Shown here piece by piece: positions 15,415 through 32,251 of a stretch of 64,000 bases of DNA. Where the stretch lies: contig CABJBA010000009.1 of NCBI GenBank assembly GCA_902363735.1, positions 124,001-188,000 on the forward strand. The letters are read 5' to 3'. This DNA is from Clostridiaceae bacterium (lineage in GTDB: Bacteria; Bacillota; Clostridia; Lachnospirales; Lachnospiraceae). Below the pieces are notes generated by a model. It searched no databases and was not told the DNA's origin. It saw only the letters and a list, made by a program, of their open reading frames with translations. Each line of letters opens with the position of its first letter. The stretch's first letter is position 1. A program made the translations under genes and the position numbers.

Positions 15415-15430
15415 AGAACCATCCTCCTGA

Positions 15431-16492: not shown

Positions 16493-16519
16493 AAGCAGCG
16501 CGCTCCCTACATCAATTTT

Positions 16520-17578
16520 CTATTTGATACCCACCTCATCGGGGTACAGTGCCGTCAGAGCTCTCAAATCCACGTAGTCCTTAATGGCATAATCCTGCTC
16601 AAACCGGCCTTCTTCTACAGCCCACTTTTTGATGCCGTTTAAGTGTTCCACCGTATCTTCTTTAAAATCTATCATAAATTCATAATTTTTAAAATTTACC
16701 AGAGACTGTTCCTTGGGAATGTTTACTTTCTCCTCAAGGATTGCTGCCGCTTCCTCCCCATGAGCAGCCAGCCACTCCTCCGTCTCCTTAATGGCCGCCA
16801 GAAACTCCTCCACAACAGTCTCCTGGCTTCCCAGAAATTCTGTGGAGGAAATGTAATACTGGTCCGTTCTCAGCCCCAGATCATCCATGGTCAGAAATGG
16901 TACCATTCCCGCTTCCTCCAGCTTTTTTCCATTTATTCCTCCTGCCCAAACAGCTATTCCTTCTCCCGATGTCATGACTCCCAAAGCTGCCTGTGCGCTT
17001 TCCACATTTAATATTTTTTGTTGGTCTTTGGGCACATTGGCTGCTTCAAAGGTCCGTGCCGTCCAGTAATCCCATACCGTTCCTGGAAGGGTAATAACCC
17101 CCTGGCCTGCCAGATCCTCAATCTTTTTCACTTTTTCCGGATTGACATAAAAAGAACTTCCCTTTCCTGTTCCAAACCGGGCAATAAAACGAAGATTGGT
17201 ATCTTTCTGGGTATTCCCCAGACGGTTTACCGCCGCATAGTCAGCCAACAGCCCGATATCCGCCTGACCTGTGACAATGGCATCAACCGTGTTGATTCCT
17301 GCCGCAAACTCCGTTATCTCCAGCTGAATCCCAAGTTTTTCAAAGAAACCATTTTCCTTACCGATTAAAGCAAGCCACTGGTCAACGTTATTAGTCATAA
17401 CGGCGGCGCGTACCTTAACCAGATCTTTTTCCGTCTGCCCTGCCGTACTTCCTGCCGTACTTTCTGCCTTCTTGACGCTGCTTTCAGCCCCACATCCTGT
17501 TGTTCCGGCCGCCACTGCAGCTGCCGCTCCAATTGCCGCTATCACCGATAATATTTTCTTTCTGCTCTTCATTTCCAT
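16520..17578 (-). CDS. Sulfonate/taurine-type substrate-binding lipoprotein (set 3)
   Basis: 352 residues with a lipoprotein signal (positive start, hydrophobic core, lipobox TTGC near residue 29). The mature part resembles NMT1/SsuA-like proteins (GINTVDAIVTGQADIGLL, VITLPGTVWDYWTAR). AGGAGA lies 3 bp before the first ATG and about 9 bp before an ATG two codons later; the second may be the true start. The protein is paralogous to the binding protein at 30485-31561: both share the GI(N/D)TV(D/N)A pattern and a closing aspartate-tyrosine / YP motif. Confidence 0.88.
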   Translation of the reverse strand: MEMKSRKKILSVIAAIGAAAAVAAGTTGCGAESSVKKAESTAGSTAGQTEKDLVKVRAAVMTNNVDQWLALIGKENGFFEKLGIQLEITEFAAGINTVDAIVTGQADIGLLADYAAVNRLGNTQKDTNLRFIARFGTGKGSSFYVNPEKVKKIEDLAGQGVITLPGTVWDYWTARTFEAANVPKDQQKILNVESAQAALGVMTSGEGIAVWAGGINGKKLEEAGMVPFLTMDDLGLRTDQYYISSTEFLGSQETVVEEFLAAIKETEEWLAAHGEEAAAILEEKVNIPKEQSLVNFKNYEFMIDFKEDTVEHLNGIKKWAVEEGRFEQDYAIKDYVDLRALTALYPDEVGIK

Positions 17579-17744: not shown

Positions 17745-18533
17745 TTAGATGTAGTATTCAACAGGGACGGCGCTATCCTCAAAAAATTCAGAATAGATCT
17801 CCTTTCTGATTTTTACAAAGTCAACACTGCTTCTGTCTCTTGGCCTCCCCATGGGAACCGGAATGATTTTTTTAACCATTCCCGGGCGCTTAGACATGAG
17901 AAAGATACGGTCACTTAGGAAAATAGCTTCATCGATATCATGGGTAACGAGAACCATGGTAGTTTGTTCTGCCTGCCATATCCTAAGAACTTCATTTTGC
18001 ATGTTGATCCGGGTCAGGGCGTCTAAGGCTCCAAAGGGTTCATCAAGCAGCAGTACGGAGGGCTGGTTGATGAAGGCTCTGGCAATGCTGACCCTCTGCT
18101 GCATTCCTCCTGATAACTGCCTTGGCAGAGATCTTTCAAAGCCGCTTAAATTCACCAAACGGATGTGCTCCCTGACCAATTCCTTTTTTTCCTGTCCCGG
18201 CAAAGGCTTATGAATACCAAATTCTATGTTCTGTTCCACATTAAGCCAGGGAAATAATCTGGATTCCTGGAATATCATTCCGGTTTCTACAGAGGGCTTA
18301 AGGACAACCCGTTCCCCTATTTTAGCCTGGCCTCCAGAAGCTTTTTCGAGACCGGCTATAATTCGGAGCAGGGTGCTCTTTCCACATCCACTGGCGCCCA
18401 CAATACTGATAAATTCTCCGCTTTTAACATCCATATTGATATCCGACAATACTTCCAGATTTCCATTCTCAATCTGGAAGTATTTTTTTACTCCGTCAAT
18501 CACTAGATTTTTATTGACTTCCACCTTCCTCAC
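17745..18533 (-). CDS. ABC transporter ATPase, SsuB/TauB family (set 2)
   Basis: 262 residues. Walker A GASGCGKST, Q-loop FQESRLFPWLNV, signature LSGGMQQRVSIARAF, Walker B LLLDEPFGALD and switch VTHDIDEA are present. The frame opens with a GTG that overlaps the permease stop (GTGA). However, the only good ribosome site (AGGAG) lies 8 bp before a second GTG three codons later (18524), which may be the real start. Partner of the permease at 18530-19324. Confidence 0.92.
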   Translation of the reverse strand: MRKVEVNKNLVIDGVKKYFQIENGNLEVLSDINMDVKSGEFISIVGASGCGKSTLLRIIAGLEKASGGQAKIGERVVLKPSVETGMIFQESRLFPWLNVEQNIEFGIHKPLPGQEKKELVREHIRLVNLSGFERSLPRQLSGGMQQRVSIARAFINQPSVLLLDEPFGALDALTRINMQNEVLRIWQAEQTTMVLVTHDIDEAIFLSDRIFLMSKRPGMVKKIIPVPMGRPRDRSSVDFVKIRKEIYSEFFEDSAVPVEYYI

Positions 18534-19324
18534 TCCTGTTCTTCTGCTGTATTCCAGCGCAGCACCCTTTTTTCTACTCTGATTAAAACAGCATCTATAA
18601 TAAGTCCTACCATGCCGATGGAAACTACTCCTACCAGCATAATATCAGGCTGGGATAACTCCCTGGAATACATAATTAAATATCCGATTCCTTTTGCCGC
18701 CGCTATCATCTCCGCTGCAACCACGCAGGACCAGGCGGCACCGATCCCCAAACGGATACCGGTAAAAACCGAAGGAAGCGCAGAAGGTATCATTACCTTT
18801 GTAAGTATCTGAATTCTGTTCTTTTCTAAAATATAAGCCACTTCCAACAGCTTCTTATCTGTATTTTGAATTCCTCTGACGGTATTGAGCAAAACAGGCC
18901 AGAAGCTGCCAATGCCAATTAATGTAACTTTAGAACCCTCGTCAATTCCCATCCAGAGAATCAGTACCGGAACCCAGGCGATAATGGGTATAGGTCTTAA
19001 AATCCCTATAAATACCGCTGATAATTCATTGACTTTTTTCGATAATCCAATGAGAACACCCAGAAATAATCCCAGGAAAGTGCCTGCAAAAAAGCCCTTA
19101 ATTACCCTTATCATGCTGACCAGCAAATGCTTTTGCAAATCACCTGTTCCAATCATTTCCGTCAGGGTATTCCATAAAATGGAAGGCCTCGGAAGGATAG
19201 ACTGGTTAATGGCGCCTGTTTCTCCAAACCATTCCCACAATACCAGAAAGATGATCGGCAGCGTTGCTCCTGCCGCCATCCTTTTGATTTTATTTTGGTA
19301 ATTCCTGTTCTTCGACTTTTCCAT
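18530..19324 (-). CDS. ABC transporter permease, SsuC/TauC family (set 2)
   Basis: 264 residues with six predicted membrane segments. The coupling loop is LEVAYILEKNRIQILTKVMIPSALP, slightly divergent from the usual EAA. An AAGGA site precedes the ATG. It belongs with the binding protein encoded 11 bp upstream and the ATPase encoded downstream (4-bp overlap). It is more distant from the other two permeases of the island than they are from each other, suggesting a different substrate. Confidence 0.9.
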   Translation of the reverse strand: MEKSKNRNYQNKIKRMAAGATLPIIFLVLWEWFGETGAINQSILPRPSILWNTLTEMIGTGDLQKHLLVSMIRVIKGFFAGTFLGLFLGVLIGLSKKVNELSAVFIGILRPIPIIAWVPVLILWMGIDEGSKVTLIGIGSFWPVLLNTVRGIQNTDKKLLEVAYILEKNRIQILTKVMIPSALPSVFTGIRLGIGAAWSCVVAAEMIAAAKGIGYLIMYSRELSQPDIMLVGVVSIGMVGLIIDAVLIRVEKRVLRWNTAEEQE

Positions 19325-19335
19325 ATTAGTTCCTT

Positions 19336-20319
19336 TTATTCTGTTATTCCTGCAGCTTTTAAAAATGAGAGGTCAATGACCGAATCTATGTCCACATCAC
19401 TCCGTATGGTTCCCTGCTTTCTTAAGTAATCGGCAGTCTCTTTAATGGAATCAATTTTTTTCTGATCTAAAAACAAGCTGCGGTCAAATTTTTCAAAGGT
19501 AGCAGCAAATGCAGATGAATCCAATCCACTGGCCTTTGCCAAAATATCCAGGGACTCTTCCTCATGTTCATTGGCCCACTTTGCAGCCCGGTTAAGTACC
19601 TTCAGCAGTCTGGCAGATATTTCAGGATTTTTTTCCAGAAATGCTGCATCTGCAATAATGACATTTACATTATATTTATATCCGGTTCCATCCTGAATCA
19701 CATCGGCCACACCAGAGGATACACTTTTCGTTATATAAGGTTCCCAGGTAACACCTGCGTCAATGGAGCCGCTCTCAAGAGACGTATAAATATCGCCCGG
19801 AGACAAGTTTAAAAGTTCCGCATCATTTACAGTCAGCCCTTCCGCCTCCAGGAATTTCAGTAAAAGCTGGTGACCTACACTTCCGGCAGTATAGCCGATT
19901 TTCTTTCCCTTAATATCAGAAAGTGTTTTAATTCCTGAATCAGAAGAAGCAACCAAGGCATTTCCCTTTTCCGTGGAACCATAGGAACCGATAATCTTAA
20001 GAGGGAGATTGTTTGCTTTCCCCTGCACCGCAGGCTGATCTCCCACCAGGCCAAAATCCACCTCTCCCGCCGCAAATGCTTCTATAATAGGAGGTCCTGA
20101 AGCAAACTGCTTTAATTCTACGGTAATACCGTCTTTTAAAAATTCCTCTTCAAAAAAGCCTTTCTCCCTGGCAATTAAAGGCTGTGTATGTCCGGGCTGG
20201 TGAGCCAGACGAATAACCAAGTTACTTTTAATATTATCCTGCACGGCAGCTTTCTGGCAGCCTCCTAAAATTCCAACCACAGCAAATACAGCCATAATTC
20301 CTGCTATTCTTTTCTTCAT
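19336..20319 (-). CDS. Sulfonate-type substrate-binding lipoprotein (set 2)
   Basis: 327 residues. Lipoprotein signal with lipobox LGGC near residue 21. The mature part has the SsuA/NMT1 pattern (VIRLAHQPGHTQPLIAREKG; FASGPPIIEAFAAGEVDFGLVGD; IGYTAGSVGHQLL). It is typical of aliphatic sulfonate binders, although nitrate- and bicarbonate-type relatives share the fold. It follows the split-barrel flavoprotein gene by 20 bp and lies in the operon controlled by leader A. Confidence 0.9.
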   Translation of the reverse strand: MKKRIAGIMAVFAVVGILGGCQKAAVQDNIKSNLVIRLAHQPGHTQPLIAREKGFFEEEFLKDGITVELKQFASGPPIIEAFAAGEVDFGLVGDQPAVQGKANNLPLKIIGSYGSTEKGNALVASSDSGIKTLSDIKGKKIGYTAGSVGHQLLLKFLEAEGLTVNDAELLNLSPGDIYTSLESGSIDAGVTWEPYITKSVSSGVADVIQDGTGYKYNVNVIIADAAFLEKNPEISARLLKVLNRAAKWANEHEEESLDILAKASGLDSSAFAATFEKFDRSLFLDQKKIDSIKETADYLRKQGTIRSDVDIDSVIDLSFLKAAGITE

Positions 20320-20339: not shown

Positions 20340-20807
20340 TTATTTAACGATCCATCGATCCAAATGTCCTAATATCGGATGTTCCTTTTCTTCTGCGGCT
20401 CTTCTCTTTTTAAAGGATTCTTCCACAACTTCTTCCGGCTCAATGACCCATACAGTGGATAAATCAATATCCCCATGCTTTTCCTGCAGCAGATTGTAAT
20501 GACGCTGGAATTCTCTGCCTGCAATAATCGCTTTGCGCGGAACCCCTTTAATCTGATAACTGGTTCCATCCTCTCCAAGGATATTAACCGCCACCGGTTT
20601 CTTAAACCAGATGCTCCACACCATGTTCTTATTGGTCTGAGAAGATTCAAGGAGTTCATAAAATTCCAGATTTCCTTCGTCATTGATGTGAAGGGAACCC
20701 TTGTAAGCAACATGGGGATTGCCTTCACGGTCTATTGTAGCTACAGCCTTGACGGTGGCTTTTTCTAAAAGCAGGGTTTTAATTTCATCATTTAATATTA
20801 CTGCCAA
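20340..20807 (-). CDS. Pyridoxamine 5'-phosphate oxidase-like FMN-binding split-barrel protein
   Basis: 155 residues. Features of the split-barrel flavoprotein fold: ATIDREGNPHVAYKGSLHI, NKNMVWSIWFKKPVAVNIL and IKGVPRKAIIAG. It starts at a TTG with GGAGG 8 bp upstream; there is no better ATG. Family members bind FMN, F420 or heme and act as small oxidoreductases or flavin carriers. It is placed between a radical SAM gene (12 bp) and a sulfonate-binding protein gene (20 bp). It could supply electrons or flavin chemistry to the organosulfur pathway; this is inference from context. Confidence 0.8.
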   Translation of the reverse strand: MAVILNDEIKTLLLEKATVKAVATIDREGNPHVAYKGSLHINDEGNLEFYELLESSQTNKNMVWSIWFKKPVAVNILGEDGTSYQIKGVPRKAIIAGREFQRHYNLLQEKHGDIDLSTVWVIEPEEVVEESFKKRRAAEEKEHPILGHLDRWIVK

Positions 20808-20819
20808 TTTTTTTTCCTC

Positions 20820-22073
20820 CTACACTCTGGATAAATCTGTATCAGGATGATTGCCGCATCTGCGGTAATTGTCCATATCCACATGAATTCCATATTTTCT
20901 GCGCAGGCTGTCAAGGCCTTCTGAAATTCTCACATAATATTCCAGAGATGGACTTTTCTGATTAAAGAAGAGGGAACCTGGTGCCACCGTCCAAACACAG
21001 CCCACCGGACTGACTCCGTTTCTGCAAAGCTCCTCTGCTTCTGCCAAAATAGCTTCAATTCCCTCCTCCTCCGTCTTAAAACCGTGAGGTTCTGCCATTT
21101 CCGTTCCTACAACAAGACCTGTATTAACATATCCTCTGCCAAAAATATCAACAGCTTTATACAAACGCTGCTTCCATTCTTCATAACCAATTTTTGCGGC
21201 TTTTCCCGGACAGATCCAGTTAAACTTTTCCTCATTCAGAATTTCAATATCTGCGGTATAGCTCATCAGACCTGTTTCTTCATACAGCCTTTTCAACTGA
21301 CGCTCATTAAAGGCAGTACCAATGAGTTGGCTTGGAAATCTTTTTTGGCCGAAATTTTCTCCAATTCGTTTTAATATTTCAATATAATAATCCACCTCTT
21401 TATCCAACAATTCCTCTCCGTCTAAAATTGTTCCTCCGGTGAGAAATATACTGGTGTATCTGCCCTTTTCCTTCAGTGCCTCCTCTACCGTCTCGCTTAT
21501 GTCATCTACACTGAGAAACTGTTCCTTGTCACTGGATTTATATGCCGCCGCAATGGAACAGTATTTACATCCATGTCCGGGTGTCTCCCAAAACTGGCAG
21601 AATTGGTTGGGATTAATATCAATACGCTGGGGTCTGGCCCAGGCAATCTGCCACATGGGTTTCCCGCTTCTTGTAACCTTGTCATAAAAGTCCGGTTTTT
21701 CCCAGTATTCTACCTCCTCGAAAACTTCTCCTTCATCACTTAGGACAATTCTTCCATCTATTACATCAACCACAAAAGGATCGCGTTTTGCTGAAATCCC
21801 CCGATAGGTGCCTCCGGTTAATACGCTTGTGCCATCTCTAAGAAGCAGAGAGACCGGAGTGTTATCAGACTTTTCTCCTGCAAAATTTCTATGTACAGTC
21901 TGGTGTATCTTATGGTTCACCTTTTGCAGTGCCGCATCGGTAAAAATAACGCCCCGCCTTTGAACATCCGTTTTTATAATAATAAATGGTGAGATGTGAG
22001 GATACTTTTCAATCACATCTCTTAGGCTTAGCTCCTTTTTTCTCCAATCCCTGTCATATGTTGCTTCAGCCAT
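20820..22073 (-). CDS. Radical SAM enzyme with CX9CX2C cluster motif
   Basis: 417 residues. Instead of the usual CX3CX2C the likely [4Fe-4S] motif is C159-X9-C169-X2-C172 (FCQFWETPGHGCKYCS). A GGT-like SAM-binding segment follows (IFLTGGTILDGEELL), and late conserved features include FNWICPGKAAK. The ~150-residue N-terminal extension is of unknown function. The same ICPGKA motif and a widened cluster motif occur in the protein at 27582-28805, so the two are paralogues. It lies in the metK operon under leader A. It may build or insert a cofactor for the nitrogenase-like enzyme, or act on a sulfur substrate. It is not NifB, which has CX3CX2C and a NifX tail. Confidence 0.85.
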   Translation of the reverse strand: MAEATYDRDWRKKELSLRDVIEKYPHISPFIIIKTDVQRRGVIFTDAALQKVNHKIHQTVHRNFAGEKSDNTPVSLLLRDGTSVLTGGTYRGISAKRDPFVVDVIDGRIVLSDEGEVFEEVEYWEKPDFYDKVTRSGKPMWQIAWARPQRIDINPNQFCQFWETPGHGCKYCSIAAAYKSSDKEQFLSVDDISETVEEALKEKGRYTSIFLTGGTILDGEELLDKEVDYYIEILKRIGENFGQKRFPSQLIGTAFNERQLKRLYEETGLMSYTADIEILNEEKFNWICPGKAAKIGYEEWKQRLYKAVDIFGRGYVNTGLVVGTEMAEPHGFKTEEEGIEAILAEAEELCRNGVSPVGCVWTVAPGSLFFNQKSPSLEYYVRISEGLDSLRRKYGIHVDMDNYRRCGNHPDTDLSRV

Positions 22074-22133: not shown

Positions 22134-23351
22134 TCACTTTTCCTGATTATAAGATGCTTTTTCCCCATAGAATTCTAAGGCTTCTTTTAAAGGTTCCACT
22201 TTATTTAAGGATTCCCACGGAAGATTCAGATCTGTTCTGCCGAAGTGCCCATAAGAAGCCGTCTGCCTGTAAATCGGACGACGCAGATCCAGTTCCCGTA
22301 TAATTGCCTGGGGACGTAAATCAAACACCTTATTTATGGCCTTTATGATTGTGTTTTCGTCATACTTTCCCGTACCAAAGGTCTCTACAGCAATAGAAAC
22401 CGGCCTGGCAACGCCAATGGCATAGGATATTTCAATCTCCGTCTTATGGGCTGCTTTTGCAGCTACAAGAGTTTTGGCAATCCAGCGGGCTGCATAGGCG
22501 GCAGAGCGGTCCACTTTTGTGGGATCCTTGCCTGAAAATGCACCGCCCCCGTGTCTTCCTGCACCGCCGTAGGTATCTACAATGATTTTGCGTCCCGTAA
22601 GCCCCGAATCACCCTGGGGGCCGCCTATGACAAATCTGCCCGTAGGGTTTATATAATATTTTGTATCCGCGTCCAGTAAATTGGCCGGAAGAACCTCTTT
22701 AATAACTTTTTCTATGACATCTTCCCGGATTGTTTCCAGAGCTGTCTCTTCTGAATGCTGAGTGGAAACTACCACCGTATCAATACGGGCAACATCACCC
22801 TTATCATCAAATTCCACCGTTACCTGAGATTTTCCGTCAGGGCGAAGATAGGGGAGGATTCCCTCCTTCCTGACTCTGGCCAGCTGCTTGGTTATCCGGT
22901 GGGCAAATGAAATAGCGGGAGGCAGATATTCGGGTGTTTCATTGGTTGCATAGCCAAATATAATACCCTGATCTCCGGCTCCGATAATGGAGTCATCATC
23001 GCCATCGCCCTCCCTGACCTCAATTGCCTGGTTGACACCCTGAGCTATATCAGGAGATTGTTTGTCAATTGCGGTAAGCACGGCAATGGAATCCGCATCA
23101 AATCCGCCTATATTTTTTTCATAACCAATGCTCCTGACAGTTTCCCGAATAATTTCCGGAATATCCACGTATGCCGTAGTACTTACTTCTCCGGCTACCA
23201 ATGCCAATCCCGTAGCTACCACCGTCTCTACAGCCACTCTGGCAAAAGGATCTTCTGCTATGAGAGCATCTAAAATGGAGTCTGATATCTGATCCGCGAT
23301 CTTATCCGGATGCCCTTCTGTTACTGATTCTGATGTAAAAAACTTTCCCAT
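22134..23351 (-). CDS. metK: S-adenosylmethionine synthetase (accessory copy in an organosulfur operon)
   Basis: 405 residues from the ATG at 23351 (GAGGA 7 bp upstream); earlier in-frame starts at 23357 and 23375 are badly placed. All hallmarks are present: [30 protein letters not shown], and the [16 protein letters not shown] loop. It makes SAM from methionine and ATP. It heads the operon metK - radical SAM - split barrel - ABC transporter, behind the cysteine leader rather than an S-box. Linkage to two radical SAM genes suggests it supplies them with SAM under sulfur starvation; whether it is the cell's only metK cannot be seen here. Confidence 0.96.
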
Positions 23352-23479
23352 TTTCATTTCCTCGCTTTCTTTCACTTACTAGCTGAATTCTAAATATATC
23401 CGACTGCAAAAAGAATTTTTTCCGCTGTTTTTGGATTCTTATTCTTCTTAACTGAACCATATTTGTGTAATTTGGGTAC

Positions 23480-23508
23480 AAAAAAAACAGGTACTTATAT
23501 AATACCTG
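23480..23508 (-). terminator. Attenuator terminator hairpin A
   Basis: Minus strand: CAGGTA - 9-base loop - TACCTG (arms 23503-23508 and 23488-23493), followed by eight T residues (23480-23487). It lies between the cysteine-rich leader frame and metK (start 23351), so it would stop transcription before the operon unless the antiterminator forms. Confidence 0.85.
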
Positions 23509-23541
23509 CCAGACTATGCCTGCTGATTTTCAGGTATTATA
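23498..23541 (-). promoter_or_regulatory. Antiterminator A competing with the terminator
   Basis: TATAATACCTG (23531-23541), the last codons of the leader frame, can pair perfectly over 11 bp with CAGGTATTATA (23498-23508), which is also the 5' arm of the terminator. The two hairpins therefore exclude each other. A ribosome finishing the leader covers the first arm and permits termination; a ribosome stalled at upstream Cys codons leaves it free. Confidence 0.75.
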
Positions 23542-23655
23542 ATGCTTAGGGAAGCAGACTGTATTCATACACACACATACATTCTTACAACAACAATCCA
23601 TAACACCAATAGCTGGCCTGTTCCTTTTTTTAACTGATAATACTTGGTTTTGCAT
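23530..23655 (-). CDS. Cysteine-rich 41-residue leader peptide A
   Basis: A small frame: ATG at 23655, TGA at 23530. The product starts MQNQVLSVKKRNRPAIGVMD, followed by CCCKNVCVCMNTVCF and a YNT end. Six of 41 residues are Cys, including three in a row. AGAGGA lies 10 bp before the ATG. The same frame, with the same length and core, is found at 31771-31896; cysteine codons differ synonymously (TGT/TGC) between the copies, supporting selection on the peptide. Polycysteine leader peptides are known to mediate cysteine-responsive attenuation in mycobacteria. The downstream hairpins fit that mechanism. A RiPP precursor is a less likely alternative. Confidence 0.82.
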   Translation of the reverse strand: MQNQVLSVKKRNRPAIGVMDCCCKNVCVCMNTVCFPKHYNT

Positions 23656-23931: not shown

Positions 23932-25233
23932 CTAAACACCAAATATATCTGATTCAAAAAGAAATTGTGCCGACTTTTGCTGTTGTTTTCGGTTATATCT
24001 GATAATTGTGCTTATATATTCCTCAGTAAGACGTAAGGCGCCATTAATCCCAATATAGGTGGAGCCCAGTACGATCTGATTTTCAAGAGGATACTCCACT
24101 GCCAGACTTGCCATCTGACGCTTATCTCCAAGCCTGCTTTCCAGAGAACTGCCCAAAATGAACTGAGAACCGGAGCTGACATCCCATTGTTGGGATGCAG
24201 TTGGCGGCTGCCCCTTCTCCTGATGATCGGCGGGGATTATTTGGACAGTATTTGCACCCAGATAACGGCTTAAGAAGTCTCCGTAGCCTCTTCCATAATT
24301 TTCATCAGAAACAATGGTAACGCTCTTCCGTATATCTTCCGGATAATAATAATCATAAATCCGCTGGAAAATATGCTGAAATTCTCTTTCACGTTTTCCG
24401 CTGTATTCCTCAATCTTTTCCAAAGGCAGATGTAGGGCTTCTCCCACAGTTTTTAAAAACTCACTCACAGCTCCAGGGCCTACCGGAATATCCGGTATCA
24501 GAAGCCAGGGCACTCCAAAGAGTTCTTTCAGACGCTTGGCTGCCTGCACGCCCCATTTGGAGAATACAAGGGAGAGAGAGGCCTCCGGCAGACGGCATAG
24601 CTGAGACCAGCCGTTTTCGTTAAACAAATAATTGGAGGATACTCCTATGCCGTTAAGTAAAAAAGATAATTCACTTAAGTCATTCTGAAAATGAATATTC
24701 ACCCCTGGGATGATACCAAACAAATTAACCGATACCCCCTGACCGGAGGGTGCGGCTTCCTTTGAGTCTGATACCAGTGGTAATGCTCTTATCAGATTAT
24801 CCATAAATACTTCATAGCCGGCGTGGGGCAGGCCTTTAAAACCGGCCGTTTCACTTCCAAAAACCGGTATGCCCTGGCCGACAGCTTCCTTTACCATAGC
24901 TGGAATGTCGTCTCCCACCATAGCTGATTCACATCCGCTTAAAACTGCATAAAGTTCTGCGTTTACAACCTTTGACGAATTCTTTATCTGCTCACGCAGC
25001 CGGGAGCCGCCCCCAAATACCACATGGCGCTCCAGTACATTGGTGGACGGTATTTCAAGACCGCCATGAAAACCGTATCCTAAACCCGCCCCATAGTCTG
25101 ACAGGCTTCCCTGCTGGGCGCAGCCCCCGTTGGAATGCACCACCGGGACGATCCCGGGAATTTCCAGTGCTGTGCGCAAAGCCCCATGAAAAGCACATCC
25201 AAATCGGCCTTTCTGCAAACAATCATGAGCCAT
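23932..25233 (-). CDS. Nitrogenase-like component, NifK/NifE/BchN-type subunit with three cluster cysteines
   Basis: 433 residues. The three P-cluster-type cysteines are kept: C13 (RFGCAFHGA), C38 (VVHSNGGCAQQ) and C101 (VLSGCESAMVGDDI). The SGC...GDD segment is a hallmark of the NifD/K/E/N superfamily. The rest shows the three-domain pattern of the superfamily (VNLFGIIPG, KSVTIVSDENY). GGGAGGTG precedes the ATG, 2 bp after the NifD-like stop, so the two are made together. It is far from true NifK in length and sequence. It is the last gene of the nitrogenase-like operon. Confidence 0.85.
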   Translation of the reverse strand: MAHDCLQKGRFGCAFHGALRTALEIPGIVPVVHSNGGCAQQGSLSDYGAGLGYGFHGGLEIPSTNVLERHVVFGGGSRLREQIKNSSKVVNAELYAVLSGCESAMVGDDIPAMVKEAVGQGIPVFGSETAGFKGLPHAGYEVFMDNLIRALPLVSDSKEAAPSGQGVSVNLFGIIPGVNIHFQNDLSELSFLLNGIGVSSNYLFNENGWSQLCRLPEASLSLVFSKWGVQAAKRLKELFGVPWLLIPDIPVGPGAVSEFLKTVGEALHLPLEKIEEYSGKREREFQHIFQRIYDYYYPEDIRKSVTIVSDENYGRGYGDFLSRYLGANTVQIIPADHQEKGQPPTASQQWDVSSGSQFILGSSLESRLGDKRQMASLAVEYPLENQIVLGSTYIGINGALRLTEEYISTIIRYNRKQQQKSAQFLFESDIFGV

Positions 25234-25235
25234 TT

Positions 25236-26681
25236 TCAGTTCACCTCCCTCTTTATATACCAGTCTCCCCGCCTCTTAAGCCACTCTTCCCTGTAATAAT
25301 CCGAAGCAGCATCCACAGCTTTTAGAGAATCAGAACCTGTGCTTTTCAGCTTAACTGCCATGTCAATAAAAGTCCGTATTCCATTATATCCGCACAGTGG
25401 AAACTGTCCGCTGTAGAACGGAATGATCCCAAGCCCGGCGGCAACACGGGATAACTCACCGCTGCCTGCATAATAATCCGGCTTTGACTTGCTTAAAGCA
25501 TTTACCATTTCAAAAGGCTGCCCGGTTGCTACGACGGCAGTAATCCGGTCGGAAACATGAACCCTGGCATCTGCCAGCATTGATTCCATATCCTTTAATT
25601 CCTTCCGGTTCTTTTCATCCACATATGGAAATCCATAGCCTGTTACAGTCCCTCCCAGAGAAATGATAAGCTGGGTAATGCTTTTTGCCGCCTGAACCTC
25701 TAACTCCAGGAAAAAAGATTTCCCCGCCAAAGGCTGTTTTGAAAACTCCTCCTGCAGACTTTCTTCCTGTTGTTGTATGAAATCCGATACTTTTTCTTCT
25801 ATTTTAAATGCAGTTCCCAGCGCTATTAAGAACTCTCTGACAGACTCCAGGGAAGCAGGATAACCGGCCTCCAGATAAGGGACACCGAAATCGTCGCGAA
25901 GTCCCTCTCCCAGCAAATGGCCCTCGCTTCGGTTTACAGCTATGGAAGCATCTGCCAGAGAAGCATTCCGGATTCCATCTACGGAAGAAAACAATGGAAG
26001 CAAATGCCAACGGATTCCCAATGCAGATACCAGCTTTGTTATGGCTGTCAAATCCTGTATAGACTCGGAAACTGAGATAAGATTAAGGAATTCTGTTTTC
26101 AGAGGGTGGTCGCTGTCCAAATTTTCTTTGTCACGGATCAGGTACCGCAAAAAGGCATGAAATACAATATCATAGCCGGTAACCGGAGTTTTTGATTTAA
26201 ATCCGTCCGTATTTATAAACACAACCGGAACGTCCGTCTCCTCTGAAACTTCCAATATGACCGAGGAAACATCATCGTTGCTGATTGCCGTAACGGGTGT
26301 CCCCACTATAAACACTGCTGCTGCACCATGCCGGAGGGCCAGACGGACGGTTTTCCTCAGTTCATCATCTCCTCCAAGAATAGTATTACGTTCATTAAGC
26401 CCGGTAGTATAAATGGGCGCTGTCTGAATCCTGTTGAAATACTTCCAGGCCGCAGAGCAGCCTGCACTGCCATGAACCACCACCGAAGCACCTCTTATGG
26501 TGGCCAATATGGCCAGTGCATATAAAATTTCATCATTTCCCGCCTGGGAAAAAGTGCGCAGCCGCTGCTCAATTTCGCCTTTGGTATCGCTTATGAGCTG
26601 GCCTAATGCTCCATGGTAATTACTGAGAGCCGCAGTTCTTTTTTCTCTGGTGGGAATGGTTCGTTGTGTTCTGACTCCCAT
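25236..26681 (-). CDS. Nitrogenase-like component, NifD-type subunit with altered cofactor ligands
   Basis: 481 residues containing only two cysteines. C75 (VVHGSAGCSA) matches the NifD P-cluster cysteine of HGPIGC. The ECPIGLIGDD segment of NifD appears as GTPVTAISNDD, so that cysteine is Thr. The HCYRSMN segment holding Cys275 appears as VNRSEG. The YSGPYHGFDGF segment holding His442 appears as YSGQFPLCGYNG, putting C430 near the His position. These are alignments by eye. The subunit therefore cannot bind FeMo-co in the usual way; a different cofactor or substrate is expected. AGAGAGG precedes the ATG; the NifH-like gene lies 32 bp upstream. Confidence 0.83.
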   Translation of the reverse strand: MGVRTQRTIPTREKRTAALSNYHGALGQLISDTKGEIEQRLRTFSQAGNDEILYALAILATIRGASVVVHGSAGCSAAWKYFNRIQTAPIYTTGLNERNTILGGDDELRKTVRLALRHGAAAVFIVGTPVTAISNDDVSSVILEVSEETDVPVVFINTDGFKSKTPVTGYDIVFHAFLRYLIRDKENLDSDHPLKTEFLNLISVSESIQDLTAITKLVSALGIRWHLLPLFSSVDGIRNASLADASIAVNRSEGHLLGEGLRDDFGVPYLEAGYPASLESVREFLIALGTAFKIEEKVSDFIQQQEESLQEEFSKQPLAGKSFFLELEVQAAKSITQLIISLGGTVTGYGFPYVDEKNRKELKDMESMLADARVHVSDRITAVVATGQPFEMVNALSKSKPDYYAGSGELSRVAAGLGIIPFYSGQFPLCGYNGIRTFIDMAVKLKSTGSDSLKAVDAASDYYREEWLKRRGDWYIKREVN

Positions 26682-26713
26682 ATTTTACCTCTCTTTACAT
26701 AGCATTGAATATA

Positions 26714-27589
26714 TTAGATAGCTTCAAAAGCCGATATTTCCCCAGCGTTTAAGCTGTATACCTTATCGCCCCAGAGCCTTGCCCATTCCCGAAGGTCTGC
26801 CGCACCCAAAGGATTTGGAACCACCAGTTCTTCATTTCCCGCAACGTATTTTGCCAGCTTACGGTACAAATCTGCATGTTCTGATTTTGGTTTTGCTTCA
26901 ATAACTGTTTTTCCGTACAGCTCACTCTGAGACACCACCAGGGAACGGGGGATATGCCCCGCCACTGTCGTCCCTGTTTTTTCAGCAAAATCATTGATGA
27001 TGGAATTTGAATAGCCAGCCGATAGTCCATTTGCAATGATACCTCCCAGTTTTGCTCCTCCGGTAGGAGCGTACTTGTTTATGGCTTTAAAAAGATTGTT
27101 AGCCGCATAGATAGCCATAAAGTCCGAAGAACTTACCACATATGCCCTGTCGGTAATTCCATCCCTGATGGGAACCGCAAATCCTCCGCACACAACATCT
27201 CCCAGTACATCATAGAGAACAAAGTCAGGTTTAAACTCCTCAAAAAGATGAAGCTCCTGAAGGAGGGTGACGGCGGCGTTGATCCCCCTCCCGGCGCAGC
27301 CCACGCCAGGCACTGGCCCTCCTGATTCAATGCAAAGGACTCCTCCAAACCCTGCTGCAGATATATCCTCCAGGTGTACCCGGGAGGCGCTGCGCATACT
27401 ATCCAAAACCGTAGGCAGATAATGATTTCCCCGCAATGTATTAGTGGAATCACTTTTGGGGTCGCAGCCAACCTGGATCACCCGATAGCCCGCCTCTGCC
27501 AGTGCAGCACTTATATTGGAGGTAGTGGTAGATTTACCGATTCCTCCCTTTCCATAGATGGCAATGTGCTTGCCGATTTTATCACTCAT
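26714..27589 (-). CDS. Nitrogenase-reductase-like iron protein (NifH/BchL/CfbC superfamily)
   Basis: 291 residues from the ATG at 27589 (AAAGGA 10 bp upstream; a TTG further up is unlikely). The P-loop is GKGGIGKST (residues 13-21). Both [4Fe-4S] cysteines are present, about residue 98 in PGVGCAGRGI and about 134 in GDVVCGGFAVP, as is the Arg that in NifH is ADP-ribosylated. The protein would hydrolyse ATP and pass electrons to the NifD/K-like pair encoded just downstream. The start overlaps the radical SAM stop by 8 nt, indicating coupled translation. Confidence 0.94.
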   Translation of the reverse strand: MSDKIGKHIAIYGKGGIGKSTTTSNISAALAEAGYRVIQVGCDPKSDSTNTLRGNHYLPTVLDSMRSASRVHLEDISAAGFGGVLCIESGGPVPGVGCAGRGINAAVTLLQELHLFEEFKPDFVLYDVLGDVVCGGFAVPIRDGITDRAYVVSSSDFMAIYAANNLFKAINKYAPTGGAKLGGIIANGLSAGYSNSIINDFAEKTGTTVAGHIPRSLVVSQSELYGKTVIEAKPKSEHADLYRKLAKYVAGNEELVVPNPLGAADLREWARLWGDKVYSLNAGEISAFEAI

Positions 27590-28805
27590 ATTGATCCAAT
27601 CCTTTCTTAAGTTTGACGTCAATTCCCTCTAGAATTCGGTATAAATCAAAGGGTACGGAATCTGAACCTGCATTGGCATCCCTTAACTGATCCCAGGTCA
27701 CTCCATGCTTACGGTATAAGGAAACAGTCCGCTCAAATACCTCCCAGTGCCAATCAGGGTCAGGTGTCCGATGACCTTGCAGGGCTGACCCCACATTGAC
27801 GTACCACTGGCTGGGTTGGGCAATTACACCGTTTTCCACCAGATATTCAATTCCAGTCATTAAGGACTCCTTAGGTTCTATGCCAGAGACCAAAGTGGAA
27901 CGGACCCGGTATTTTCCGAACAATTCCACCTCATATTTAAGGGCCGCCAGCCAATTTGACCTGCCCCCGCACTCCTGGGCTTTTCCAGGGCAAATTAAGT
28001 CAAACATTTTCTCGCTCCAGACTTCCATATTAGTGGCAAAGGTACGGTATCCCGCCTCCTTATATTTTTCCAGTACCGTAAGATCCCTGGGGGCTCCCAC
28101 ACATGCTGTACCGTTAAAATCCTCAAGTCCAGTTGCGTTCTGAATTGCTTCGGCAACATCTAAATAGTATTCAACTTCTCTCCGCTCCGGCACAAATCCG
28201 CCGCTTATAGTCACATGATCAAACCCGTACTCTCTGTAGCCTGCCCCTACGGCTTCCCCCACCTGTTTTGGAGTTTTCCAGCTAATTCCCTGGGCATCTC
28301 CGTATATGGATTTTGTGGCGTTTATATTGCAGAATAAGCAGTCCAGCCCTTTATCTTTTAAAGAACATTCATTGCTGTAGGATACGAACAAGGCTCCGTG
28401 CCCGTTGTCGGTGGCTATAGTCCGAAAAGAGGTGCCGTCAGAAGCAGACAGCTTATAATAGGGGGATCTGGTGACAAAATACAAATTTTCAAAAACCGGA
28501 GTATTGCGATCAAATACATGATACTGGCCGTCTATGTAACGTATGGACAGGAGACTATCCTGATTCCAGCGTATCCCCACTCTGAATTTACCCTTAGGAG
28601 TCAGGAAACAGGCTGGAAACTCCACATCCTTGTGAGCGTGTTTATCTGCCGTAAACAGGACATGGACCGTTTCCTGAATCTCACCACCAACATCCAGATT
28701 TTTAAAAATATCTATCGGAAAGCTCAGACCTTCCACCAGAATCCGGTTTTTTAACTGTACTTCTTTAATCAGTTCTTCCTTGCTATAATTTGATAAACTA
28801 CTCAT
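27582..28805 (-). CDS. Radical SAM enzyme with CX8CX2C cluster motif
   Basis: 407 residues from the ATG at 28805 (AAGGAG 6 bp upstream); a longer frame to 28838 lacks a ribosome site. The likely cluster motif is C147-X8-C156-X2-C159 (NECSLKDKGLDCLFCN), followed by a glycine motif in HVTISGGFVP. FDLICPGKAQE matches the FNWICPGKAAK of the other radical SAM protein of the island. It is the first enzyme gene after the transporter and directly precedes, with overlap, the NifH-like gene. A role in making or loading the cofactor of the nitrogenase-like complex, or in activating its substrate, is inferred. Confidence 0.86.
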   Translation of the reverse strand: MSSLSNYSKEELIKEVQLKNRILVEGLSFPIDIFKNLDVGGEIQETVHVLFTADKHAHKDVEFPACFLTPKGKFRVGIRWNQDSLLSIRYIDGQYHVFDRNTPVFENLYFVTRSPYYKLSASDGTSFRTIATDNGHGALFVSYSNECSLKDKGLDCLFCNINATKSIYGDAQGISWKTPKQVGEAVGAGYREYGFDHVTISGGFVPERREVEYYLDVAEAIQNATGLEDFNGTACVGAPRDLTVLEKYKEAGYRTFATNMEVWSEKMFDLICPGKAQECGGRSNWLAALKYEVELFGKYRVRSTLVSGIEPKESLMTGIEYLVENGVIAQPSQWYVNVGSALQGHRTPDPDWHWEVFERTVSLYRKHGVTWDQLRDANAGSDSVPFDLYRILEGIDVKLKKGLDQYE

Positions 28806-28863
28806 GATAAACTCCTTCTGCTGCAGACCGCAGCCCATAATATGTTGTTAATAAACAGTTCAT

Positions 28864-29661
28864 CTAAATTCTCTTATTGTCAAATATTCCATAGGGCCTG
28901 AGAACTGCTTTTCCGAACAGCCGGATCAGCCGATCTGACAAATACCCCATCAATCCCAGAACCAGAAGTCCGATAAATATCCAGTCCGTTCTGAAATACA
29001 GCCTGGAGGTATAAATTAAAAATCCAATTCCTTCCTTAGCCGCCAGCATCTCCGCCGCAACGATAGAGGTAAATGCACCTCCTAGAGCCAGCCGTATGCC
29101 TGTAAAAATATGAGGAACAGCAGATGGAATTATTACAAAAAATACAATTTGCCATTCCTTTGCTCCCAGAGACCTGGCCGCCTCAATCCGGTGAATTTCC
29201 ACACTCAGCACCCCTGCTATGGTGTTAATGAGAAGAATAAAGATGGTGGCGTACATAATGAGAACTACCTTGGATTCTTCTCCGGCCCCAAACCACATGA
29301 GGAACAGGGTCAAAAATCCGATGGCCGGAATAAAACGGAAAAAATCAATGAGCGGTTCGAAAATCAGCCGCAGCAGTTCAATCCGGCCGATAATGACTCC
29401 CGCAGGAATCCCGATCAGCATTCCAAGCACCCAGCCAGAACAAACTCTTTTTATGCTGATTAAAACATATCTGCCAAGGGTCCCATCTAAAATAATCTCT
29501 TTCATTCCTGCAAAAGTCTCCCATGGACTGGGAAGAAAATCAACCGTATACAGCAATGATGCGCTCCCCCATATTGTAAGTAAAACAACCCAGGTAAGTA
29601 TGCCTTTCTTTGCAAGGAAAAGTAACTTGCCGTAAATGGCTTCTCCTATATTTTCTGCCAT
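28864..29661 (-). CDS. ABC transporter permease, SsuC/TauC family (set 1)
   Basis: 265 residues from the ATG at 29661 (AAGGAG upstream, 7-bp spacing); the upstream in-frame start at 29718 would overlap the ATPase gene. Membrane segments and the coupling loop (EAARSLGAKEWQIVFFVIIPSAVP) are clear. It is very similar to the set 3 permease across the region from DFFRFIPAIGFLTLFLMWFG onward, so the two transporters are paralogues. Confidence 0.9.
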   Translation of the reverse strand: MAENIGEAIYGKLLFLAKKGILTWVVLLTIWGSASLLYTVDFLPSPWETFAGMKEIILDGTLGRYVLISIKRVCSGWVLGMLIGIPAGVIIGRIELLRLIFEPLIDFFRFIPAIGFLTLFLMWFGAGEESKVVLIMYATIFILLINTIAGVLSVEIHRIEAARSLGAKEWQIVFFVIIPSAVPHIFTGIRLALGGAFTSIVAAEMLAAKEGIGFLIYTSRLYFRTDWIFIGLLVLGLMGYLSDRLIRLFGKAVLRPYGIFDNKRI

Positions 29662-29674
29662 ACTGCTCTCCTTT

Positions 29675-30466
29675 TTAAATGTGCTGCCCATAGTCAAAAT
29701 GTCCCTGCACCTTTTCAAACAATTCGTTGAATCCTTTTGATGTCACATTTCTGGGATAATTCAGACCCACATCATAGATCTTGTAAATCGTGGCTTCCGG
29801 GGATTTTGACATGATGCTGATACGCTGCCCCAGAAGGATTGCTTCCGTAATGTCATGAGTTACAAAAATAATGGTCTTTTTTGTCTGCTTCCAAATTTTA
29901 ACCAATTCTATCTGCATCAGACGACGGTTATGTGCATCAAGAGCCCCGAAAGGTTCATCCATAATAAGGATTTCAGAATCATTGGCAAGACTTCTTGCAA
30001 TCTGGAGACGCTGCTTCATTCCTCCTGACAATTCGTTGGGATATTTTTTCACATGCTCTTCTAAACCTACCAGCGTTATATATTGGGAGGAAATAGAATG
30101 CCTCTCCCTGCTCCTTATTCCTTTTATCTTAAGCCCGAATTCCACATTTCCCCTGACGGTCAGCCATGGGAAGATGGCAGAATCCGCATTTTGGAATACC
30201 ACGCCCCTGTCCTCTCCCGGCTTGCTTATCTCTTTTCCATCCACCCGGATACTCCCTCCGGACTTGGGTATGTATCCGGCAATGAGGCTGAGCAGGGTGG
30301 ACTTGCCGCAGCCGGATGGGCCCAGAAGAATGTGAAATTCCCCTTTATTTATCTTTAAGTTCACATTCTCCAATACATACGGCGCCTTCTTCGTATGGCC
30401 GTCTAAGGTGTCATAGGCCTTGGATACCTGGAAAATCTGAATAAAGCCTTGCTCTGCTGTCTCCAT
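29675..30466 (-). CDS. ABC transporter ATPase, SsuB/TauB family (set 1)
   Basis: 263 residues. Walker A GPSGCGKST, Q-loop FQNADSAIFPWLTV, signature LSGGMKQRLQIARSL, Walker B LIMDEPFGALD and switch VTHDITEA are present. It lacks the regulatory tail of the set 3 ATPase. It lies 18 bp after the binding-protein gene and overlaps nothing once the permease start is corrected. Confidence 0.92.
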   Translation of the reverse strand: METAEQGFIQIFQVSKAYDTLDGHTKKAPYVLENVNLKINKGEFHILLGPSGCGKSTLLSLIAGYIPKSGGSIRVDGKEISKPGEDRGVVFQNADSAIFPWLTVRGNVEFGLKIKGIRSRERHSISSQYITLVGLEEHVKKYPNELSGGMKQRLQIARSLANDSEILIMDEPFGALDAHNRRLMQIELVKIWKQTKKTIIFVTHDITEAILLGQRISIMSKSPEATIYKIYDVGLNYPRNVTSKGFNELFEKVQGHFDYGQHI

Positions 30467-30484: not shown

Positions 30485-31561
30485 TTATTTCCCGGCTGTT
30501 ACCCGTTCCGGATAGACTTCCCTGAGGATATCCAGATTAATGTAATCACGAATGTCAAAATCATATTTTACCAGCTTATTTTTAATGGACCATTTTGTTA
30601 CGCTGTCAAGCTGGTTTACATCCTCAGCCGAAAAACGTATGTCAAACTCAATGCTTTTTAATGCCTTTTCAATATTTTCTGACGGTATACCAAAGTTTTT
30701 CTGTATGAGTTCTGCCGCTTCTCCCGGATTTTCATTGATATAGACAGACGCTTCATCAAGAGCTTTTAGAAGCCTTCCAATGCCTTCCTGATTCTCTTTT
30801 ATGAAATCTTTTTTTACTGTAATAAACCCTCGGGGAGCAAAATTGATCAGAGTATAATTTCCCATAGATACACCTCCCAGCTCCTTCACCTGGTCTTGTA
30901 TGTCTCCTCCTGCCCAGATGGCATTGGCTTCTCCTGATTTCACCAATGCCATACCTTCTGCCGTACTGCTGATGTAAAGAGGGTTCACTTTGGAAGAATC
31001 AATGTCATACTGATCATATAATTGCTCCCAAACATACTCATTTACCGTCCCCTTCTGCACAATAACAGACTTTCCTTCCAGATCCTTCGGCTCTTTAATC
31101 CCGTCATCAAGTACGTATAAGCCAACTCCATCCATTTTGTTACCTGCTGTAAAAGCAATAAACTGCAGCTGGCTTTCTCCTCCCAGCCTGCTGATGGCTG
31201 CAAAATCCATAGCCTCTCCCATATCTGCCTGATCCAGGATAACGGCATTTACCGTATCTATTCCATAGGCATAAGTCTGAAACTCCGGCTCTATGTTGTA
31301 CTTGTCGAATATCCCTTTATTTTCGGCTAGCCAGAAAGGATACGCAAAGGTTCCTGAGTCTATGGCCACCGCTAATTTAAAGGGGGCACCGCCGGATGTA
31401 TTTTCTTCAGACGACGTATCTGCACTTGCTGCTCCGGTTGATGTTTCCTTTACTTCCGCCTTTTCTTTGGTTTTTGTCTGCCTTGAGCAGCCGGCAAGAA
31501 CCGGCAGGAGCAGCAGTGCAGTTAAAAGAATAAACAATGATTTCTTTTTATTTAATTTCAT
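30485..31561 (-). CDS. Sulfonate/taurine-type substrate-binding lipoprotein (set 1)
   Basis: 358 residues from the ATG at 31561 (AGGAGA 9 bp upstream). The lipobox is VLAGC near residue 26, followed by a Ser/Thr/Glu linker. The mature domain has TFAYPFWLAENKGIFDKY, GIDTVNAVILDQADMGEA and a late DYINLDILREVYPE. It is the first structural gene after leader B, so it starts the operon transporter - radical SAM - NifH/D/K-like. The ligand is unknown; a small sulfonate or thioether is the contextual guess. Confidence 0.9.
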   Translation of the reverse strand: MKLNKKKSLFILLTALLLLPVLAGCSRQTKTKEKAEVKETSTGAASADTSSEENTSGGAPFKLAVAIDSGTFAYPFWLAENKGIFDKYNIEPEFQTYAYGIDTVNAVILDQADMGEAMDFAAISRLGGESQLQFIAFTAGNKMDGVGLYVLDDGIKEPKDLEGKSVIVQKGTVNEYVWEQLYDQYDIDSSKVNPLYISSTAEGMALVKSGEANAIWAGGDIQDQVKELGGVSMGNYTLINFAPRGFITVKKDFIKENQEGIGRLLKALDEASVYINENPGEAAELIQKNFGIPSENIEKALKSIEFDIRFSAEDVNQLDSVTKWSIKNKLVKYDFDIRDYINLDILREVYPERVTAGK

Positions 31562-31721
31562 AAACAACTTTCTCCTTTTCTTTTTTACGTTCCCTGTCAA
31601 TTACAAAAAGTGCACATATAAGTGGTCTTAAAATATCTGTTAATAAGAAAATGCTGAAGCATTAACAACATACACTTCTCCTTTCCGCCGCACAATATGA
31701 GCGGTTTTGAAATTTTAAAAC

Positions 31722-31750
31722 AAAAAAGGCAGGTATTTATAATACCCGCC
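31722..31750 (-). terminator. Attenuator terminator hairpin B
   Basis: Minus strand: GGCGGGTATT - ATA - AATACCTGCC, a 10-bp stem with one G-U pair, followed by TTTTTT (31722-31727). It lies between leader peptide B and the set 1 binding-protein gene. From here to 31562 I see nothing further. Confidence 0.88.
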
Positions 31751-31782
31751 AGACTTTGCTCACTGAACATTCAGGTATTATA
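31738..31782 (-). promoter_or_regulatory. Antiterminator B competing with the terminator
   Basis: TATAATACCTG (31772-31782), overlapping the leader B stop codon, can pair with CGGGTATTATA (31738-31748) over 11 bp with one G-U pair. The second segment also forms the 5' arm of the terminator. The design is the same as in copy A. Confidence 0.76.
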
Positions 31783-31896
31783 ATACATCAGGAAACAGGC
31801 TGTATTCATGCATGTGCATACAGCCTTACAACAACAATTCATAGAAGCAGCATTTACCAAATGAGGTTTTCTAACAGATAATGTTTTGCTTTGCAT
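31771..31896 (-). CDS. Cysteine-rich 41-residue leader peptide B
   Basis: ATG at 31896, TGA at 31771. The product begins MQSKTLSVRKPHLVNAASMN, followed by CCCKAVCTCMNTACF and a YNT end. Length, six cysteine positions, the LSV and CMNT motifs and the final YNT match leader A, while the middle differs. AAAGGA lies 10 bp upstream. The three adjacent Cys codons are 16-18 codons before the antiterminator arm, far enough that a ribosome stalled there leaves the arm free. Expected logic: low Cys-tRNA gives readthrough. Confidence 0.82.
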   Translation of the reverse strand: MQSKTLSVRKPHLVNAASMNCCCKAVCTCMNTACFLMYYNT

Positions 31897-31924
31897 ATAC
31901 AATCCATCCTTTCTTAGCTTTTTT

Positions 31925-31984
31925 TGCAGTATTTTATCTGGCATCTTAATACATATTTACATATTTGTAAAGTATGTTATTCCT
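31925..31984 (-). promoter_or_regulatory. Shared promoter/operator block B
   Basis: Counterpart of 23709-23768 (54/60 identical, no gaps). It contains the perfect palindrome TTTACAAATATGTAAA (31956-31971) and a GATAAA -10 (31933-31938) 17 bp after TGTAAA. The 209 bp upstream, to the terminator at 32194, shows no gene. Confidence 0.75.
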
Positions 31985-32193: not shown

Positions 32194-32251
32194 AAAAAAG
32201 AAGCGTTGGGGAATAACTTGAAAATCAGTTATTCCCCAACGCTTCTTTTTT
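32194..32251. terminator. Very strong bidirectional terminator
   Basis: A perfect 25-bp stem (32194-32218 with 32227-32251, 8-base loop) ends in T-runs on both strands. It ends the DUF5107-TPR gene and insulates the promoter region of the nitrogenase-like operon. Confidence 0.92.

Follow-up and report, generated by a model that had tools for sequence, protein, structure and literature searches.

Which protein breaks the carbon-sulfur (C–S) bond when nitrogenase-like genes stand together with radical S-adenosylmethionine (SAM) genes and sulfonate-type transporters? We addressed this question using a 64,000-nucleotide stretch (hereafter, the window) of a Clostridiaceae bacterium placed in Lachnospiraceae (GenBank assembly GCA_902363735.1, contig CABJBA010000009.1, positions 124,001–188,000). 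On its minus strand, genes for a substrate-binding protein (SBP1), an ATPase, and a permease (31600–28864), a radical SAM gene (27582–28838), and NifH-, NifD-, and NifK-like genes (27622–23932) are followed, after a gap of about 560 bases, by metK, a second radical SAM gene, and a split-barrel gene, and 3' of the latter by a second ATP-binding cassette (ABC) transporter, a third one, and an alkyl sulfatase. Rhodobacter capsulatus requires isrB, isrH, and isrDK of the isethionate reductase IsrBHDK to grow anaerobically on isethionate, an isethionate lyase substitutes for isrDK, and the part played by IsrB was left unsettled in the 2024 paper describing the system (PMC11423573). Operon 1 of the window has the order SBP-ATPase-permease-IsrB-H-D-K, and operon 2 the order metK-rSAM2-flavoprotein-SBP-permease-ATPase, where rSAM2 is the second radical SAM protein. 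The reading we prefer, held with about even confidence, is that these two operons with cysteine-codon leaders, one of the IsrBHDK type and one nitrogenase-free, import sulfonates, cut the C–S bond, and release sulfite, with the radical SAM protein as catalyst and IsrHDK as reductant. New here are the one-to-many relationship of IsrHDK to IsrB, the co-divergence of IsrB and its transporter, the second metK, the co-occurrence of IsrB with IsrD, and the presence of rSAM2 in IsrD-free genomes.

One IsrHDK and many IsrB proteins

Gene orders of 80 loci on genome contigs (the best 80 of 108) were drawn by matching the window proteins, and the mar-type plasmid loci L001 and L002 were excluded from the counts. 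Exactly one IsrD was found in 26/26 genomes (431–740 bits; next NifD-family match ≤282 bits), whereas the number of IsrB proteins scoring at least 330 bits in the same set was one in 9 genomes, 2–4 in 16, and 8 in one. At least two IsrB of at least 300 residues were encoded in 20/80 loci. Among 299 genomes of Lachnospiraceae (the family of Pseudobutyrivibrio ruminis), IsrD (at least 318 bits) and IsrB (at least 360 bits) were found in the same 5 genomes and in no others. IsrD of genome G311 is split across two contigs. A Chlorobiaceae locus (L077, 632–13998) carries 6 IsrB paralogs around a single IsrHDK, 5 of them upstream, and its genome contains 8 IsrB in total.

Divergence was compared using the 61 neighbouring pairs of radical SAM protein and SBP that were left of 69 once near-identical ones had been removed; 55 of the 61 contain IsrB. 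For these 55, IsrB divergence followed that of the adjacent SBP (r = 0.69; partial on IsrD, 0.65; Mantel p = 0.0005, the minimum attainable with 2000 permutations) more closely than that of IsrD (r = 0.32). In the 11 pairs in which IsrB lies at least as close to the HDK genes as to the SBP gene, the correlation with SBP was 0.96 (partial 0.91). Ten relatives have two radical SAM-SBP pairs, and eight of these combine a single IsrHDK with two SBPs of only 18–38% identity. In the remaining two, one SBP is paired with both radical SAM proteins (L058) or the SBPs are 76% identical (L059). This pattern suggests that the radical SAM proteins, rather than the nitrogenase-like part, are likely to choose the substrate.

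Several points, however, weigh against this reading. The IsrB and IsrD cut-offs were chosen after score gaps had been seen, with only 4–6 first-look candidates scored per genome in the large samples. No radical SAM gene of either type reaching 300 residues was found in 15/80 loci, many of them on short contigs, and IsrB is missing from 5/45 loci of at least 20 kb. With the rSAM2 pairs added (n = 61), the correlation with SBP dropped to 0.50 (partial 0.42), compared to 0.32 with IsrD, and in the 11 HDK-near pairs IsrB also correlated strongly with IsrD (r = 0.82, partial 0.45). Distances among related loci are not independent, and transfer of cassettes without any functional tie could yield part of the co-divergence. 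Multiple IsrB copies could represent several maturases or a dosage effect, and the IsrB fold does not tell a catalyst from a maturase.

The alternative closest to the 2024 paper is that IsrHDK itself cleaves the C–S bond, with IsrB as its maturase or radical activase. We regard this as possible and lean against it: up to eight IsrB proteins accompany one IsrHDK, IsrB divergence tracks that of the transporter better than that of IsrD, isr loci often come with an extra metK and a nucleosidase-like gene, and the rSAM2 branch occurs in four genomes in which no NifD-family match was found.

The rSAM2 cassette of operon 2

IsrB and rSAM2 both scored over the NF045502 cut-off of 125 bits (422 and 193 bits) and under the TIGR04043 cut-off, and they have in common a variant cluster motif (C-x8-C-x2-C and C-x9-C-x2-C, respectively) and a CPGK motif containing a fourth conserved Cys. 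In a 95-row radical SAM tree, rSAM2 and five other proteins formed a separate clade (100/100). Among named relatives, the one closest to rSAM2 (96% identity) belongs to Lacrimispora sp., so that the host is probably a Lachnospiraceae. The PNPOx-like gene adjoins rSAM2 in 5/5 loci of the 80-locus set and in 5/5 of a further locus set, and a Ruminiclostridium locus (L122) shows the window order metK-rSAM2-PNPOx-SBP-permease-ATPase. In the 299-genome sample, rSAM2 (at least 428 bits) was present in 7 genomes, only one of which (G256) contains IsrD; no NifD-family match was found in the other six, and a repeat search of G019, G139, G100, and G031 gave the same result. A 398-genome sample of the phylum added four genomes with rSAM2 (604–630 bits), in which NifD-family matches did not exceed 268 bits. 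A transporter like transporter 2 of the window lies next to or a few genes from rSAM2 in 8/10 IsrD-free rSAM2 genomes, accompanied by the flavoprotein in seven of these eight and by metK in six; one genome (G911) encodes three rSAM2, three SBPs, and one metK. Operon 2 is a system distinct from IsrBHDK, and rSAM2 does not need IsrD. The original prediction had combined paired radical SAM enzymes, metK, and a flavoprotein into one set around the nitrogenase-like genes. The genes are there, albeit with a weak flavoprotein match (21 bits vs. 28.1), but the single set does not hold because rSAM2 and the flavoprotein form a separate cassette in IsrD-free genomes and the window has two leaders and two operons. 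A literature search, which covered few subscription papers and little of bioRxiv, returned the 2024 paper and papers that cite it, studies of Mar and other nitrogenases, and studies of glycyl radical enzymes and sulfoquinovose; neither the rSAM2 cassette nor the IsrB paralog cassettes are described in any title or abstract returned.

The cassette is not uniform, which counts against the preferred reading: L124 and L126 lack an SBP adjoining rSAM2, and G032 and G239 (rSAM2 429–437 bits) lack SBP and flavoprotein neighbours. Operon 2 may instead convert another imported compound without desulfonation, perhaps feeding or modifying the Isr substrate. SsuA/NMT1-type proteins bind non-sulfonates too, SBP1 and SBP3 score under the SsuA-family cut-off, our search found no characterised rSAM2 relative, and the rSAM2-flavoprotein pair lies immediately 5' of isr genes in L072, L081, and L082. 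This explanation nevertheless seems unlikely to us, given a cysteine leader homologous to that of operon 1, an SBP2 that passes the SsuA-family cut-off, a radical SAM motif and CPGK similar to those of IsrB, and the occurrence of rSAM2 without IsrD. As a separate observation, a GA-cis RNA match (RF02987, 68.7 bits) in L137 (9257–9352) overlaps rSAM2 at its 3' end and the PNPOx-like gene at its 5' end.

Cysteine leaders, SAM supply, and a proposed mechanism

Each operon is preceded by a leader with a short open reading frame (ORF), an intrinsic terminator, and a possible antiterminator (Table 1). The two leaders are homologous (74% DNA identity across 199 bases; 86% for the 36-base 5' block of leader 1 and its second copy), and both ORFs contain a run of three Cys codons with three further Cys codons shortly after. 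The terminator hairpins have predicted energies of -14.3 (leader 1) and -10.5 kcal/mol (leader 2), and the 5' arm of each can alternatively pair with the end of the leader ORF (duplexes of -14.9 and -14.2 kcal/mol). Promoter-like sites around leader 1 were no commoner than in shuffled sequences. Ribosome-mediated attenuation is an established logic for amino-acid operons, and the layout of ORF, terminator, and antiterminator points to it here: when Cys-tRNA is low, the ribosome would stall in the leader, the antiterminator would form, and the operon would be transcribed. Both operons are predicted to switch on at cysteine shortage. In relatives, intergenic regions of 150–1500 bases were scanned, and Cys-rich short ORFs were found 5' of metK, IsrB, and SBP genes in 12/196 regions (0.65 expected from shuffles) and in 7/272 other regions (0.9 expected); the first set exceeds shuffles but does not clearly exceed the second (Fisher p = 0.06), a point against the preferred reading. 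Other RNA elements were seen in two relatives: L059 (Clostridium luticellarii) has four SAM riboswitches, two of them immediately 5' of IsrH and of one IsrB gene, and L051 (C. polyendosporum) has two T-boxes in its isr locus. The riboswitch and T-box scan found none in six further isr loci, nor in the other four of the set of six that included L059 and L051.

SAM supply genes accompany isr genes in many loci. A metK gene was present in 43/80 loci and a nucleosidase-like gene in 26/80, mostly 1–2 genes from isr genes, and all 17 isr genomes examined (17/17) encode at least two metK. Fifteen isr-linked metK and the window metK form one clade (100/100), and four further isr-linked metK were placed elsewhere in the tree. 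Nucleosidases of the methylthioadenosine/S-adenosylhomocysteine (MTA/SAH) type are able to remove 5'-deoxyadenosine, and the nucleosidase-like gene product is predicted to act in this way. Together, a second, repeatedly acquired metK and such a nucleosidase fit a stoichiometric SAM user and exceed what a maturase acting once would need. On the other side, metK could cover general SAM demand in sulfur starvation, the L016 nucleosidase reaches 111 of 169 bits and falls below the MTA/SAH cut-off, and the L059 nucleosidase, although it was among the four seeds used for counting, most resembles uridine phosphorylase, which makes the count a loose one.

We propose that sulfonates would be imported by the transporter of each operon and passed to the variant radical SAM protein, the putative substrate-selecting catalyst. 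A 5'-deoxyadenosyl radical would abstract a hydrogen beside the C–SO3 bond so that sulfite departs, at a cost of one SAM per turnover; MetK would turn the methionine set free back into SAM, and the nucleosidase-like enzyme that many relatives encode would clear 5'-deoxyadenosine. In the IsrB branch, ATP-driven IsrHDK would serve as shared low-potential reductant via a [4Fe-4S] cluster that probably lies between IsrD and IsrK, a role that may fall to the small flavoprotein in the rSAM2 branch. This scheme is weakened by its basis, as we infer the substrate and activity of the window proteins from sequence and context. A more sweeping version, in which the large IsrB and rSAM2 family are anaerobic sulfonate C–S lyases using one SAM per molecule cleaved, with their own transporters, IsrHDK is only a shared ATP-driven electron donor for one branch, and the other branch makes do with a small flavoprotein, is offered tentatively. 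If true, sulfite would be formed by an enzymatic route that is new, and a nitrogenase relative would have a new function.

Table 1 Features of the two operons and the adjoining genes in the window.
Feature	Position	Strand	Remarks
Operon 1 leader start	31896–31971	-	-35/-10-like TTTACA-17-TAAGAT; conserved 5' block
Leader peptide ORF 1, ...MNCCCKAVCTCMNTACF...	31771–31944	-	later in-frame ATG gives 31771–31896
Intrinsic terminator, leader 1	31728–31750	-	competes with possible antiterminator
SBP1, SsuA-type substrate-binding protein	30485–31600	-	TIGR01728 80 bits, below cut-off 163.5
ABC ATPase 1	29675–30466	-	ORF; name from sequence and position, no family scan
ABC permease 1	28864–29718	-	ORF; name from sequence and position, no family scan
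IsrB, variant radical SAM enzyme	27582–28838	-	NF045502 422 bits; C158-x8-C167-x2-C170, C283 in CPGK
IsrH, NifH-like ATPase	26714–27622	-	probable ATG start 27589; PF00142 310.6 bits
IsrD, NifD-like	25236–26681	-	PF00148 match
IsrK, NifK-like	23932–25233	-	PF00148 match; C13, C38, C101
Leader peptide 2, ...MDCCCKNVCVCMNTVCF...	23530–23655	-	5' of metK
Intrinsic terminator, leader 2	23486–23510	-	competes with possible antiterminator
metK	22134–23375	-	576 bits; groups with isr-linked metK of other genomes
rSAM2, variant radical SAM enzyme	20820–22073	-	NF045502 193 bits; C159-x9-C169-x2-C172, CPGK at 288
PNPOx-like split-barrel (probable flavin) protein	20340–20807	-	PNPOx_N 21 bits, below cut-off 28.1
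SBP2, SsuA family	19336–20319	-	TIGR01728 241.7 bits, over cut-off 163.5
ABC permease 2	18530–19324	-	ORF; similar genes in rSAM2 cassettes of other genomes
ABC ATPase 2	17745–18533	-	family scan
Third ABC transporter	14650–17578	-	SBP3 16520–17578, ATPase 15431–16492, permease 14650–15453
Alkyl sulfatase	12596–14581	-	metallo-beta-lactamase (MBL) fold and Alkyl_sulf_dimr domain matches

The sulfonate-type transporters and cysteine-type attenuators named by the original prediction were recovered: all three ABC transporters in the window are of the NMT1/SsuA type, although only SBP2 passes the SsuA-family cut-off (SBP3, 77 bits), and each of the two homologous leaders has its terminator and possible antiterminator. 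The alkyl sulfatase is a probable sulfate-ester arm. It adjoins an Arylsulfotransferase-like protein (PF05935; 11091–12581), relatives of which (59–68% identity) occur in isr loci L018, L053, L059, L070, and L077. Between the operon 1 leader and a DUF5107/TPR gene lies a long hairpin (32199–32246; 20 pairs, T runs on both strands) that is probably a bidirectional terminator. In a Lachnospiraceae relative (L034), the isr locus was seen by eye to lie beside cysD/cysN-, sulfite-reductase-, cysK-, and O-acetylhomoserine sulfhydrylase-like genes.

IsrHDK and its comparison with known systems

The presence of NifH-, NifD-, and NifK-like genes was confirmed by strong matches to PF00142 (310.6 bits) and PF00148 (187.9 and 157 bits), and the scan of neighbouring window proteins gave no NifB, NifE, or NifN, in agreement with the original prediction. 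Nitrogen fixation, tetrapyrrole reduction (Bch/Cfb), and methylthio-alkane reduction share these Pfam families with IsrHDK. None of the three proteins, however, reached the NCBIfam cut-off of any NifH/D/K/E/N, BchL/X/N/B/Z, or CfbC/D model that it matched (e.g., nifH 364 of 394, nifE 93 of 505, CfbD 29 of 268 bits), cluster ligands are missing, and the operon has no NifB/NifX-type partner, unlike the mar-type loci L001 and L002. In phylogeny, one of the checks suggested for the prediction, the Isr rows of a quick tree formed a clade of their own, separate from Mar-like and NifE rows (SH-like approximate likelihood ratio test, SH-aLRT, 99). We give almost no credence to any of these three functions, and the earlier view that the system is not Bch, Cfb, or Mar stands. 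C–S cleavage in a sulfur-acquisition context likewise gained support as the likely chemistry. A further NifD-like group (L088, L089, and L092; 244–280 bits to the Isr profile) branches separately from the Isr rows and the Mar-like rows (SH-aLRT 100). Matching genomes in the family sample number 74, and in about half of them the best match scores roughly 200–280 bits; only five such proteins (L088–L092) are in the tree, where L090 and L091 fall with Mar-like rows.

Of the three P-cluster Cys, IsrD keeps one, C75 at the Cys88 place (22/23 rows); the Cys154 place is occupied by P129 (Pro in 21 and Ser in 2 of 23 rows), and the Cys275 place by N250, with no Cys. The Cys of IsrK (C13/C38/C101; 76–77/77 rows) and IsrH (C109/C145; 76/76 rows) are conserved. 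NifB passed its cut-off in 8/17 isr genomes, and the other nine gave weak C-terminal (NifX-like) matches or none; the Isr system does not need NifB. The missing IsrD ligands and the NifB-free isr genomes agree in making a large cofactor less likely than a simple [4Fe-4S] cluster held between the IsrD and IsrK proteins. In our alignment, one position departs from the published pattern: at the Cys62 place, IsrD has Asp50 (20/23 rows), where Arg was reported, and an invariant R42 lies 8 residues earlier.

The nitrogenase-like genes of the window are likely to belong to the isethionate-reductase family IsrBHDK, an assignment based on three matching features: the order of radical SAM, H, D, and K genes, the cluster Cys pattern, and the sulfonate-type transporter. 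The proposal of a new reductase class with an unknown substrate is not supported. In guts and sediments, sulfur is commonly stored in sulfonates, isethionate and taurine among them. The cassette pattern makes testable the question of the 2024 paper, whether IsrB or IsrHDK breaks the C–S bond, and the rSAM2 cassette, which has no nitrogenase-like part, offers a candidate route for sulfonates in anaerobes and can be tested on its own. Among later papers, PMC12330013 names IsrBHDK as one of the gene sets searched for and cites the 2024 paper, which PMC11659671 and PMC13067680 also cite.

Among known systems, R. capsulatus IsrBHDK with SsuCAB (PMC11423573) resembles operon 1 in several respects, with a radical SAM gene immediately 5' of the nifH-, nifD-, and nifK-like genes, an SsuA-type transporter, the Cys pattern of IsrH, IsrD, and IsrK, and a context of sulfur starvation, whereas the window adds metK, Cys-leader attenuation, and a further radical SAM gene, and its IsrD aligns Asp for the reported Arg at one cluster position. 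MarBHDK (PDB 9fmg, 9d9u), which cleaves C–S bonds for sulfur, is the closest solved sequence and fold to IsrD. Mar is reported to retain six P-cluster Cys as well as Cys270/His429, which serve an [Fe8S9C] cluster, and to have a NifB-like MarB (PMC12552129); IsrD, in contrast, lacks two of three P-cluster Cys and an equivalent of Cys270, and both window radical SAM proteins match NF045502 and no NifB model. The NF045502 entry for this variant radical SAM family, which is to be compared with TIGR04043 (MSMEG_0568), gives no function. A mar-type cluster on a Treponema saccharophilum plasmid (L001, NZ_AP025290.1) contains two NifD/K-like pairs, NifX-like genes, an ABC transporter, and cysK. The isethionate sulfite-lyase IslA/IslB, a glycyl radical enzyme, is reported to release sulfite from isethionate by a radical route (PMC8473560, PMC6453916), to which the chemistry proposed here is analogous. 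The window-neighbourhood proteins scanned include no called glycyl radical enzyme, and in the window the radical SAM protein would act directly, spending SAM.

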